A DNA stretch of 38,148 nucleotides from Planctomycetaceae bacterium (GTDB taxonomy: Bacteria > Planctomycetota > Planctomycetia > Planctomycetales > Planctomycetaceae): assembly GCA_020426515.1 (NCBI GenBank), contig JAGQPW010000036.1, forward strand, positions 3,813 through 41,960, written 5' to 3'. Each line of letters begins with the position of its first letter. Within the stretch, counting starts at the first letter, position 1. Shown here piece after piece: positions 5,713 through 9,731 of the stretch. The translations under genes were made by a program, and so were the position numbers. The notes beneath the pieces are model-generated. The model ran no database searches, had not been told where the DNA came from, and was given only the letters and a program-made list of their open reading frames with translations.

Positions 5713-8277
5713 ATGTTGAATCTGCGAAAACTGATCCGGGGATGTGCTCCTGCCGTGTGTGTGCTCGGCCTGTGGCAGGGTGCTCATGCGGGTGAAGGAA
5801 CTGTCGGATTGAGGACCTTCGAGTCGCCCGATGGGACGACTTACGGAGCGATTTCGATCCGTCCTGCCGCCGGGCGAGCGGTCACGGCTCCCATGAGCTA
5901 CGTCGTCCTGATGGATACGTCGGCTTCGCAGGTGGGCGAGCACCGCGAACAGGCCTTCCTGGTTCTTGAAGCCTTCCTGAAGGCTCTGCCCAAACAGGAT
6001 CGCGTGGCTGTGGTTGCAGTCGATGTTCAGACCGTGGCCATGACCAATGGTCTGCAGTCGCCTGAAGTGGCCCTGGAAGCCGCTCTGCCCGCACTGGATG
6101 CCCGCTTTCCGGCAGGTTCTTCAGATCTGCTGGCCGGAATCAAAGCTGCTCAGGCGTTGCTCGCCCAGCAGCAGCACGCAGGGATCGTCTACATCGGCGA
6201 CGGCATGAGCACCGCCAACCTGGTTCAGGTTGAGGAACTGCGAGCCGTGACGTCAGAACTGCGAGATGCGCAGATTGCTGTCCACAGCTTTGCCGTTGGT
6301 TCCAATACCGACTTGCAGTTGCTGGGCATTCTCGGCCAGGAAACAGGCGGGTTCGTGGTCCGCGACGAGGTTTCCGAACAGGCACTGACCGGCACGCAGG
6401 CTGGGCAGTTGCTGGGTCGTGCTGCCCATGAAGAAGTGCAGTACCCCTCGAGTGTTTCACTCGCCGATGCGGCCCTGCTTCCTAATCGTCCGCTCCCCAT
6501 GCGAGCCGACCGGGAAACGGTCTACCTGTTTCAGGGAGATGTCACTGACGGCGTTGCTCTCTCCGTGCAGGAGCGAGATGCCGTTCACAAATACACTGTC
6601 AACACGCCGACGCGAGGGCAGGGGAACACGTTCCTCCGTCAGTTGTATTTCAATGGACAGTCAACGGATGGGCTCGCACTGGGACTGGCTGGCGACTGGA
6701 TGGTCAATCTGGCTCACCAGACATTTGAAGACTACATCGCCGGTCTGGAATCGCAGGGGCAACAGGCTCTCGCCACTGGAAATGTTCAACTGGCCGAAAA
6801 GATTGGTTTCAATCTGCTGGAAATCGATCCGAACAACGCTCGCTCCCGTTCACTGATCAACGCGGCTGCCCAGGCCCAAATTCTGCAGGTTGCACAGGTC
6901 GAAAGCCCTGCCAGCGATGCGGCAGCGGCTGATCCGCTCGCGGAGCCCAAAGCGGCAGCGGCTGATCCACTGGCCGAACCGAAAGCAACAGCCGCCGATC
7001 CACTCGCTGAACGTGAAGCTCCGGTTGGGGCCAGTGAAATCGCCCGTTACGAGGCGGAACGTGCTGCCAAGGGGCAGCGCTTGCAGAGTGAGCTTGAACA
7101 ACACATTCTCCGCGCCCGCCAGAAGTTCCCGGTTTCTCCGGAAGGTGCCCTCGCCGAACTGGAACAGGCCCGCGGTCAGGTGAAATCTGCCACGGATATT
7201 GATCCTGAATTGCAGGCTAACCTGTTGCGGATGATCAATGGCGAAATCCAGAAGACTCAATCTGATAAGCGTCAGCAGGAATCGGTGATTCAGCAGCGTC
7301 AGCGTCGGATTGCTGAACGCGAAGCGACTCAGAAGCTGATCGACTTCCAGCTCGACCGTGATGCTCAACTCGAACAGATGGTCAATCGTATCCGCGCCCT
7401 GATGGAAGACGGCTACCACGGGAACCCGAACGCCTTCGAACAGGCCGAAGCCCGTGCCCGCGAAGTCATCAATGAGTACCCCCGTAGTGCGATTGGCACA
7501 TCGGAAGTGTTTGTTACCGAAGCGGCAGGGCAGTTGGACAAGGCGGATCGTCTGCGTCAGTTGCGATCAGACCGTTTCCTTGAAGTGCTGTATCAGGTGG
7601 AACTGTCACACGTTCCGTTCCCGGACGAACCACCCATTCGTTACCCCTCAGCCGAAGTCTGGCAGGCCCTTACGGAAATGCGGGCTCAGTGGAAGTCGGT
7701 CGACCTGCATCAGACCAACGAAAACGAACGTCGGATCTACGATGCTCTGAAGCAGACCACCTCGCTGGAATTCCCCGGCAACCCATTGCAGGATGTGATC
7801 GATTACATTGCCAGCCTGCACAACATTCCGATCCGCCTGGATGAAGCAGCCCTCTCTGCGGAAGGTGTTGCTCCCGATACCGAAGTGCGCATGGTGATTT
7901 CCGGGATCTCTCTGAAGAGTGCCCTCAAGCTGCTGCTGGAAGATGTGAACGGCGTTCCGTTGACATACGTGATCGAAGACGAAGTGATGAAGATCACGAC
8001 GCAGACGAAGGCCGATGAAGTGCTGCAGACTCGCGTCTATCCGGTGGCCGACCTTGTCATTCCGATTCAGCCTCTGGGCGGTGGCTTCGGCTCCGGCGGT
8101 GGACTCGGCGGTTTCGGCGGCGGTCAGCAGGGCGGCCAGGGTGGCTTCGGCGGACAGCAGGGCGGCGGCTTCGGCGGCCAGGGTGGCGGCGGCTTTGGTG
8201 GCCAAGGCGGCGGTGGTGGCTTCTTCAGCGTTCCCGCTGAGTCAGATGCCCAAAAAAAAACGACTCCACTCCGGTAA
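5713..8277 (+). CDS. Secreted VWA / STN-like protein, N-terminal part before the A9 frameshift
   Basis: This frame encodes 854 residues. It starts with a signal peptide (residues 1-27, ending GAHA). A von Willebrand A domain spans about residues 58-250: the metal-site motif DTSAS begins at residue 68, with later GSSDLLAGI and YIGDGMS. About residues 400-440 hold three tandem AADPLAEPKA-type units. A long Glu/Gln/Arg-rich coiled region follows (about 440-620). Residues ~680-770 resemble a secretin/STN-type short domain common in planctomycetes (NPLQDVIDYIASLHNIPIRL, SLKSALKLLLEDV, LTYVIEDEVMKITT). A Gly/Gln-rich stretch precedes the end. The stop at 8275 comes eight codons after a run of nine A, and the sense of the protein continues in the -1 frame (next entry), so this product may be a truncated form, a sequencing artefact or a slippage-controlled isoform. 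Confidence 0.88.
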   Translation: MLNLRKLIRGCAPAVCVLGLWQGAHAGEGTVGLRTFESPDGTTYGAISIRPAAGRAVTAPMSYVVLMDTSASQVGEHREQAFLVLEAFLKALPKQDRVAVVAVDVQTVAMTNGLQSPEVALEAALPALDARFPAGSSDLLAGIKAAQALLAQQQHAGIVYIGDGMSTANLVQVEELRAVTSELRDAQIAVHSFAVGSNTDLQLLGILGQETGGFVVRDEVSEQALTGTQAGQLLGRAAHEEVQYPSSVSLADAALLPNRPLPMRADRETVYLFQGDVTDGVALSVQERDAVHKYTVNTPTRGQGNTFLRQLYFNGQSTDGLALGLAGDWMVNLAHQTFEDYIAGLESQGQQALATGNVQLAEKIGFNLLEIDPNNARSRSLINAAAQAQILQVAQVESPASDAAAADPLAEPKAAAADPLAEPKATAADPLAEREAPVGASEIARYEAERAAKGQRLQSELEQHILRARQKFPVSPEGALAELEQARGQVKSATDIDPELQANLLRMINGEIQKTQSDKRQQESVIQQRQRRIAEREATQKLIDFQLDRDAQLEQMVNRIRALMEDGYHGNPNAFEQAEARAREVINEYPRSAIGTSEVFVTEAAGQLDKADRLRQLRSDRFLEVLYQVELSHVPFPDEPPIRYPSAEVWQALTEMRAQWKSVDLHQTNENERRIYDALKQTTSLEFPGNPLQDVIDYIASLHNIPIRLDEAALSAEGVAPDTEVRMVISGISLKSALKLLLEDVNGVPLTYVIEDEVMKITTQTKADEVLQTRVYPVADLVIPIQPLGGGFGSGGGLGGFGGGQQGGQGGFGGQQGGGFGGQGGGGFGGQGGGGGFFSVPAESDAQKKTTPLR
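6911..7020 (+). repeat. Tandem in-frame repeat (three units of ~13 codons)
   Basis: Within the VWA gene the protein motif ADPLAEPKA recurs three times in a row: AAAADPLAEPKA, AAAADPLAEPKA, TAADPLAERE. The DNA copies differ at several third positions (gatccgctcgcggagccc, gatccactggccgaaccg, gatccactcgctgaacgt), so the array is not a very recent expansion. It forms an Ala/Pro linker between the VWA part and the coiled region. Confidence 0.8.
8251..8261 (+). other. A9 homopolymer: candidate -1 frameshift or transcript slippage site
   Basis: Nine A occupy 8252-8260, read as CAA AAA AAA ACG in the upstream frame. A shift of -1 here gives QKKNDSTPVIGQPIAAEP and leads straight into the downstream open frame, with no stop until 9731. 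In the upstream frame a stop appears at 8275. The A AAA AAA heptamer fits a -1 slippery site, and runs of this length are known to allow RNA polymerase slippage. A single missing A in the assembly would give the same picture. Confidence 0.75.
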
Positions 8278-8372
8278 TTGGCCAGCCCATCGCGGCTGAA
8301 CCCGTCAGCGACAACAACACCCAGCGGACACCGGCCAGCAATGGCGGGGAGTCCGCTGGTGTCGTTTTTCAG

Positions 8373-9731
8373 GTGCCAGTTGCAGCAGTGAAATACGACG
8401 AAGTTCCGATTCCCGAGTACGCCGGACGTAAGCCGCAGGATGTCTGGCCGGCATTTTTCAAGCAGTATCGCCCGCGCCCCGCTGTGGTTGGCTCGTTGAT
8501 TCGGCGGCTCAACAACGACAAGCAGCACGAGCACACGATCAGTTGCATTCAGTCGGCGCTCATCAATGGGCAGTCTCAGCCCTGGATGTATGAAGTTCTC
8601 GCGCTGTCGATGGAGATCGCCGGTCGACCCGCTGCCGAGGTCGAACGGGTGGTGTTGTCGCTGTCAGACTTTGGTCAGGCGGACTATGGGGCGTTCATGT
8701 ATTCCGGAGCCTATCTGGCCCGATTCAAACGCCCAGCAGCGGCGCTGCGTATGTATCGGCAGGCATCGCGAATGATGCCGGAGCGCCCCGAGCCTTACAT
8801 CCTCGGCCTCAAGCTCGCTCAGGAATTGAAATCTCCGGAAGACGTCGCGTGGGCGGCAACGGGAATTCTTGAGCACTACTGGAATCATGATTACCAGGCC
8901 AGGCATCGTGATGCGGAACTGGCCGTTGCCGAAGTGCAGCGTCAACTGCAGAGAGCAGGGGAGTCGGAAATTGCTGGACAACTTGGCCAACAAATGCGGG
9001 CGGCTCAAATTCGCGATCTGAAAATTCGTGTTGAGTGGAGCGGGGCCGCCGACCTCGATCTGCTCGTCGAGGAGCCTTCCGGGGCGGTCTGTTCCTTCTC
9101 GACTCCCGAGACAGCGGGAGGCGGGCTGTTGACTCACGATGGTTGCGGGCCCGATGCCAGCCTGTGTTATGAGGAGTACGTTGCCCCTCGCGCCTATTCG
9201 GGTGATTACCGCATCACCATTAAGAATGCCGGAGGGAGTCTGGTGGGGAACCGCGCGGTCGTCATCATCACCATGAACGCCGGAGGTCCCAAGCCCATCG
9301 AACGCAAGGAAACGGTCAACCTGTCGGAGGGAGATGCGATTCTGCGCGTGACCCTCGACCAGGGGCGTCGCACGCAGCCTCGCGCTGTTCTCGGCCAGTT
9401 CGAACGGGAATTCCTTGAGCAGTTGCAGGCGGCGTCACGTCCACAGGGGCGACGCCAGGCACCAGGGGCAGGGCAGCGAGTCGCTCAGGAGTTGCTGACC
9501 GGCAGAGCAAACGCCGCCCAGCCTCGTCGAGCAGGGGCATTTGCATATGCCCCCGGCGTTCAGATTATTCCTGAAGGGACCATTCTCAGCGGTTCCACCG
9601 TGGTCTCAGCAGATCGCCGGTACGTTCGTCTTGCCATTTCGCCGACATTCAACACCATTACCGATGTATTCACGTACAGCATCTTTGGCGGTCAAACGAC
9701 ACAGCAGTCTGGTGGCCAGGGACAGCGGTAG
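8373..9731 (+). CDS. Continuation of the VWA protein in the -1 frame: TPR-like and YfaP-like C-terminal part
   Basis: The frame is open from the A9 run (8253) to 9731. The only start-type codon near its beginning is GTG 8373, which has no ribosome binding site (preceding bases gtcgtttttcag), and the codons between 8262 and 8373 read like protein (STPVIGQPIAAEPVS, NNTQRTPASNGG). So this is most likely the C-terminal ~490 residues of one ~1339-residue protein with the preceding frame. It holds a helical TPR-like section (PWMYEVLALSMEIAGRP, ALRMYRQASRMMPERPEPYI), then a YfaP/DUF2135-like beta domain (VEWSGAADLDLLVEEP, GGGLLTHDGCGPD, SGDYRITIKNAGG), then a Gln/Arg/Gly-rich end (SGGQGQR). If translated alone it would lack a signal peptide, which argues further for fusion to the upstream part. 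Confidence 0.82.
   Translation: MPVAAVKYDEVPIPEYAGRKPQDVWPAFFKQYRPRPAVVGSLIRRLNNDKQHEHTISCIQSALINGQSQPWMYEVLALSMEIAGRPAAEVERVVLSLSDFGQADYGAFMYSGAYLARFKRPAAALRMYRQASRMMPERPEPYILGLKLAQELKSPEDVAWAATGILEHYWNHDYQARHRDAELAVAEVQRQLQRAGESEIAGQLGQQMRAAQIRDLKIRVEWSGAADLDLLVEEPSGAVCSFSTPETAGGGLLTHDGCGPDASLCYEEYVAPRAYSGDYRITIKNAGGSLVGNRAVVIITMNAGGPKPIERKETVNLSEGDAILRVTLDQGRRTQPRAVLGQFEREFLEQLQAASRPQGRRQAPGAGQRVAQELLTGRANAAQPRRAGAFAYAPGVQIIPEGTILSGSTVVSADRRYVRLAISPTFNTITDVFTYSIFGGQTTQQSGGQGQR

Follow-up and report, generated by a model that had tools for sequence, protein, structure and literature searches.

The question raised by this locus is why the gene of a secreted VWA protein is broken by a run of nine A, and whether the break is due to programmed slippage, to an error of the assembly or to a real interruption of the gene. 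The window, that is, the whole stretch of 38,148 nucleotides that was analysed, has exactly nine A at positions 8252–8260, as the original prediction had claimed. The upstream ORF, which defines the zero frame, runs from 5713 to 8277 on the plus strand (as do all features of the window described here) and encodes 854 amino acids, being orthologous in 24 aligned family members. It closes at a TAA (8275–8277) behind the C-terminus ..DAQKKTTPLR. This stop begins 14 nt past the run, and the predicted distance of eight codons agrees if these are counted from the codon holding the first A. From 8241, the −1 frame stays open as far as a TAG ending at 9731, overlapping the upstream ORF by a few dozen nucleotides, and one added A joins both halves into 1339 residues; the ORF list thus confirms the predicted 854-residue ORF, the open −1 frame and the length of about 1339 residues. 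The third frame (ORF 8015–8299) has a stop at 8297–8299, which would close transcripts with eight or eleven A in the run.

The upstream half starts with a likely Sec signal peptide, read from the sequence (5713–5793; MLNLRKLIRGCAPAVCVLGLWQGAHA followed by GEG, end approximate). The VWA domain (5902–6354), with a MIDAS-like DTSAS motif, is recognised by Pfam VWA_3 (4e-14, residues 64–214), and VWA folds are among its top PDB matches. It therefore has both the VWA fold and the MIDAS-type DxSxS motif that membership of this domain class asks for, and its residues D68, T69, S70 and A71 are invariant in the 24 aligned family members. An STN-like (secretin/TonB short N-terminal) domain lies at 7720–8028; Pfam STN is found in six of 24 relatives, and residues 670–772 of the model adopt an alpha/beta fold. 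A Gly-rich linker follows, predicted to be disordered (8074–8226, limits approximate), with pLDDT below 50 from residue 774. Searches of the window's downstream half with Pfam and NCBIfam gave no match. Its TPR-like helical repeat region (8433–9008), which had been predicted, is supported by the agreement of Pfam on relatives (TPR models in up to nine of 27) with a fold model showing eleven helices and matching the TPRs of MamA and OGT. The following all-beta domain (9012–9356), at the place for which a YfaP-like domain had been predicted, has eight strands in residues 241–355, mostly with pLDDT above 90, and lacks a Pfam match. Alignment, class search and model delimit a C-terminal two-strand element (VVSADRRYVRL...FTYSIFGG, 9582–9647). 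This strand pair recurs in separate planctomycete ORFs of 1200–2200 aa, e.g., G000:C333:32-199 (G000 being the window genome), and may be a module for sorting or assembly that these proteins share.

As the 5.81-Mb assembly of the window genome consists of 530 contigs and is 92% complete, and homopolymers are error-prone, an assembly or sequencing error hiding a true run of ten A and a gene in one frame was a fair initial suspicion. Relatives of the downstream half occur, however, in 169 of the 170 genomes of the same family (f1), from 58 genera, and in nearly all strong family matches the open frame holding it has only about 400–700 aa, which implies that the window shares its break with relatives. 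The junction is covered in 128 of the 130 family loci fetched, the remaining two ending at a contig edge, and in all 128 genomes it carries an uninterrupted A-run: A9 in 122, A8 followed by G in three and A10 in three. Among them are 21 single-contig assemblies and a named isolate, Thalassoglobus neptunius KOR42. If the 14 genomes of a second family (f2) are added, a run of A8–A10 is present at 142 of 142 orthologous junctions. In the 45-nt stretch from −15 to +30 around the f1 junction, the nine A are the only columns that are invariant over 122 family sequences. The missing A that the original prediction had offered as the plain alternative is thus excluded for practical purposes by the same run in 128 family genomes, 21 of them single-contig, and by the 14 of another family, and an error is most improbable. 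The comparison with orthologues that had been proposed as a check yields a conserved run, and the counter-evidence then named, orthologues in one uninterrupted frame with no conserved run, is seen only in other families of the class. The family-wide run clearly favours slippage over error and real break, and, as far as sequence can tell, the gene very likely uses programmed slippage.

The same counts bear on phase variation, in which replication slippage between A9 and A10 in the DNA would switch a long form on and off. Homopolymers can serve this purpose (PMC3711429), and one family locus, L097, has A10 and a continuous frame of 1351 aa. A switch of this kind would show mixed states across species, yet A9 is found in 122 of 128 genomes, nearly all of them split, and this explanation is scarcely credible. 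For L097 itself, a transcript with nine A would stop within a few codons.

The halves could also be two separate genes, the second of them with an independent start or translationally coupled to the first, and an ORF overlap of a few dozen nucleotides is common in coupled genes. Start codons close to the junction are nonetheless rare, on which ground both kinds of start are rejected: ATG, GTG or TTG in the downstream frame between −30 and +60 nt occurs at 22 of 125 junctions, with only two ATG and four cases having a Shine-Dalgarno-like site. In the window, the first start codon listed for the downstream half is a GTG at 8373. Moreover, no signal peptide is seen on the downstream half, and both halves are in one frame in six other families, so that two genes are a very improbable arrangement. 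On both counts, the want of a start with a ribosome binding site and of a signal peptide, the original prediction stands.

It had been left undecided whether the RNA polymerase or the ribosome slips on the run. In the dnaX gene of E. coli, a −1 ribosomal frameshift takes place at A AAA AAG, together with an upstream Shine-Dalgarno sequence and a stem-loop. Programmed −1 frameshifting of this type could act here on A AAA AAA or A AAA AAG within the run, as the former is read in frame in all −1 members with A9 and the latter occurs in the three A8G members. A heptamer needs seven nucleotides, yet a run of nine is kept in all three codon phases: by assigned upstream frame, the first A is at codon position 1, 2 and 3 in 99, 19 and 14 cases, respectively. 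Since A AAA AAA is available in all three phases, some −1 ribosomal slipping is possible. At the run itself AAA AAA AAA is kept, although AAG is preferred over AAA nearby (840 versus 508 lysine codons).

The direction of the shift also varies. The relation between both halves among orthologues is −1 in 125, +1 in about five and in frame in one, the A10 locus L097. For the family alone, 111 loci have the downstream half at −1, and ten gave no match to the upstream half. The +1 relation is found in three species of one genus, g16 (L092, L109 and L111), and also in L091 and L123, each of which rests on a single assembly. One locus (L064) has another indel within its Gly-rich part and is −1 locally, and in another (L072), with N's upstream, −1 was read by eye. 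According to the criterion of Antonov and colleagues, a conserved direction denotes ribosomal recoding and a varying one transcriptional slippage (PMC3711429).

The stops behind the run point the same way. A zero-frame stop lies within 40 nt of it in 100% of the orthologues versus 22% of control sites within these linkers, and a third-frame stop in 90% versus 38%. The conservation, phase and stop counts are uncorrected for shared ancestry, which may account for part of the third-frame excess. Where mRNAs differ in length at the run, early third-frame stops are to be expected, and in the dnaX gene of Thermus both other frames close early after the run (PMC1088944). The enrichment of third-frame stops counts against a ribosomal −1 shift. 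Neither of the usual ribosomal stimulators is enriched at the orthologous junctions: Shine-Dalgarno-like sites occur near 15% of them versus 14% of shuffled sequences, and downstream structure has a mean fold z of −0.69, with 15% below −2 versus 8% in the control. The window has a strong hairpin followed by TTTTT at 8320–8370, about 60–110 nt past the A9 (z −3.3), which may be a private attenuator. An attenuator shared by the family at this place was considered and rejected, as the structure is, on average, not supported in relatives.

The conserved run, the frame relations, the stops and the absence of other signals are read directly from the DNA. They comprise three marks of transcriptional slippage, namely a homopolymer of at least about eight A or T under purifying selection, a varying direction and early stops in the other frames; of the marks of −1 ribosomal frameshifting, the in-frame X XXY YYZ heptamer is present, and an enriched stimulator and a conserved direction are both absent. 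The varying direction, the nine-long run in all phases, the prompt closure of the two wrong frames and the A9 or A10 of dnaX described below favour RNA polymerase slippage, which, judged from these features, very probably gives both a short and a long protein. Ribosomal frameshifting is unlikely, with the caveat that three genomes, those with A8G, contain A AAA AAG, a strong ribosomal heptamer. Of the two mechanisms left open by the original prediction, it is thus the transcriptional one that gains support.

The proposed model is that the RNA polymerase slips on the A9 and produces a population of mRNAs of mixed A-run length. Transcripts with nine A would reach the stop 14 nt further on and yield a secreted short form of 854 aa, with the VWA domain, long helices, the STN-like domain and the Gly-rich tail. 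Those with one extra A would enter the −1 frame and yield the long form of 1339 aa, to which the TPR-like region, the beta domain and the C-terminal strand pair are added, and those in the third frame would terminate within a few dozen nucleotides. We infer from these sequences that slippage occurs, with what efficiency it may do so, that both products exist and which roles they might play: the protein would be an envelope or surface scaffold made as short and long versions in a set ratio. Since in other families of the class a single frame encodes nothing but the long form, it is the short form that slippage would add, in a fixed proportion to the long one.

These families were reached by searching a 27-row alignment (A1) over 59 genomes of the class and then reading the junctions. 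In f2, probably Isosphaeraceae, the gene is split in 14 of 14 genomes, always at −1 and always by an A9 that starts 14 nt ahead of the zero-frame stop. Six families (f3, f4, f5, f7, f8 and f9) have a single open frame of about 1240–1600 aa, with no A7 or longer run in the linker, and this fused gene encodes only the long form. In the gene tree, f1 adjoins the single-frame families f5, f7 and f9 (99/96 support) and f2 stands apart, which implies either two origins of the site or several losses of it. One common origin of the A9 in f1 and f2 was considered and rejected, as the tree does not unite both families.

A pattern search for A9/T9 found only six runs in the whole 5.81-Mb window genome; with so few, and with a run at every orthologous junction, the A9 of the VWA gene exceeds what chance would give. 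Four of these are at slippage-type coding sites, in the VWA gene, dnaX, an ABC-ATPase/GNAT gene and a transposase; of the remaining two, one is in a tRNA-like and one in a terminator-like stretch. The run at G000:C222:710-718 (L275) reads, on the other strand, like a tRNA-Arg gene. The dnaX run (G000:C388:31858-31866, L279) lies within a single ORF of 656 aa, soon after gamma/tau domain III, and the other two frames close 3 and 23 nt past it. All 15 family genomes examined keep A9 or A10 there, and the dnaX of this family appears, from its sequence, to be a Thermus-type slippage site in planctomycetes. At G000:C288:32160-32168 (L276), an ABC-type ATPase ORF and, at −1 to it, a GNAT-like ORF are separated by an A9. 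A8G or A9G stands at this junction in each of the ten family loci that were read, and eight of the nine loci in f3 have a fused gene that lacks the run. The fourth site (G000:C332:18709-18717, L278) is in a DDE transposase ORF, which has a −1 extension of 42 aa at the A9. Another genome, G006, has six distinct A9 sites, three of them in the same three genes as in the window genome. In a further one (L342, G006:C44:201523), the run splits a gene for a phosphonate-binding domain and a PQQ propeller, which carries A8–A10 in 12 of 14 loci from three families, mostly at −1 and in frame in L364 and L365. A genome of the window's family with lower G+C (G157) is much richer in A9 runs, most of them lying outside long ORFs, which indicates that A9 is not purged equally strongly in every genome. 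There is a reasonable case, if a less firm one, that in Planctomycetia RNA polymerase slippage on A9 is a general route to short and long forms of proteins (VWA-STN/TPR, dnaX, ABC-ATPase/GNAT and phosphonate-binding/PQQ-propeller), with A9 otherwise nearly purged in some genomes and with repeated gain or loss of sites within one gene.

A literature search, outside which most subscription journals lay, found no published report on this gene or on slippage in planctomycetes; the sole mention of this group in a slippage paper is a genome count that includes two planctomycete genomes (PMC3711429). The mechanism is known from other genes, and the literature searched gave no account of the gene, the depth of its conservation or the multi-gene planctomycete pattern. 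Conserved recoding in non-mobile chromosomal genes is uncommon, few bacterial cases being named in the papers found. As the site is family-wide and present in a second family, with a fused gene elsewhere, it allows slipped and unslipped versions of one gene to be compared in nature. Genes of this kind will often be annotated automatically as a pseudogene or as two ORFs. Should slippage indeed be at work, planctomycetes would be well suited to studies of the tuning of RNA polymerase slippage and of the reasons for which some genes retain it.

Among known systems, the dnaX of E. coli resembles the VWA gene in its A-rich −1 shift site and differs from it in that the run of the VWA gene is longer, its stimulators are not enriched and its direction is not conserved. 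The transposases of insertion sequences with A-run slippage (IS630 and others; PMC3711429, PMC1088944) also have −1 and +1 orthologues at an A-run, but they are mobile and the VWA gene is not. In mxiE and spa13 of Shigella flexneri (PMC1088944, PMC5009743), as here, two ORFs are joined solely by slippage and the longer product comes from it; those are plasmid-borne type III secretion genes, whereas the VWA-STN gene is chromosomal and family-wide. In dnaX of Thermus thermophilus, transcriptional slippage takes place at nine A (PMC1088944, PMC5009743). It shares with the VWA gene an A9 on the sense strand, other frames that stop early and two products per gene, but the gene and its domains are different, and its long product comes from the unslipped frame, while in the VWA gene, L097 excepted, the slipped frame gives the long one. 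The Thermus layout itself is found in the dnaX of the window's own family.
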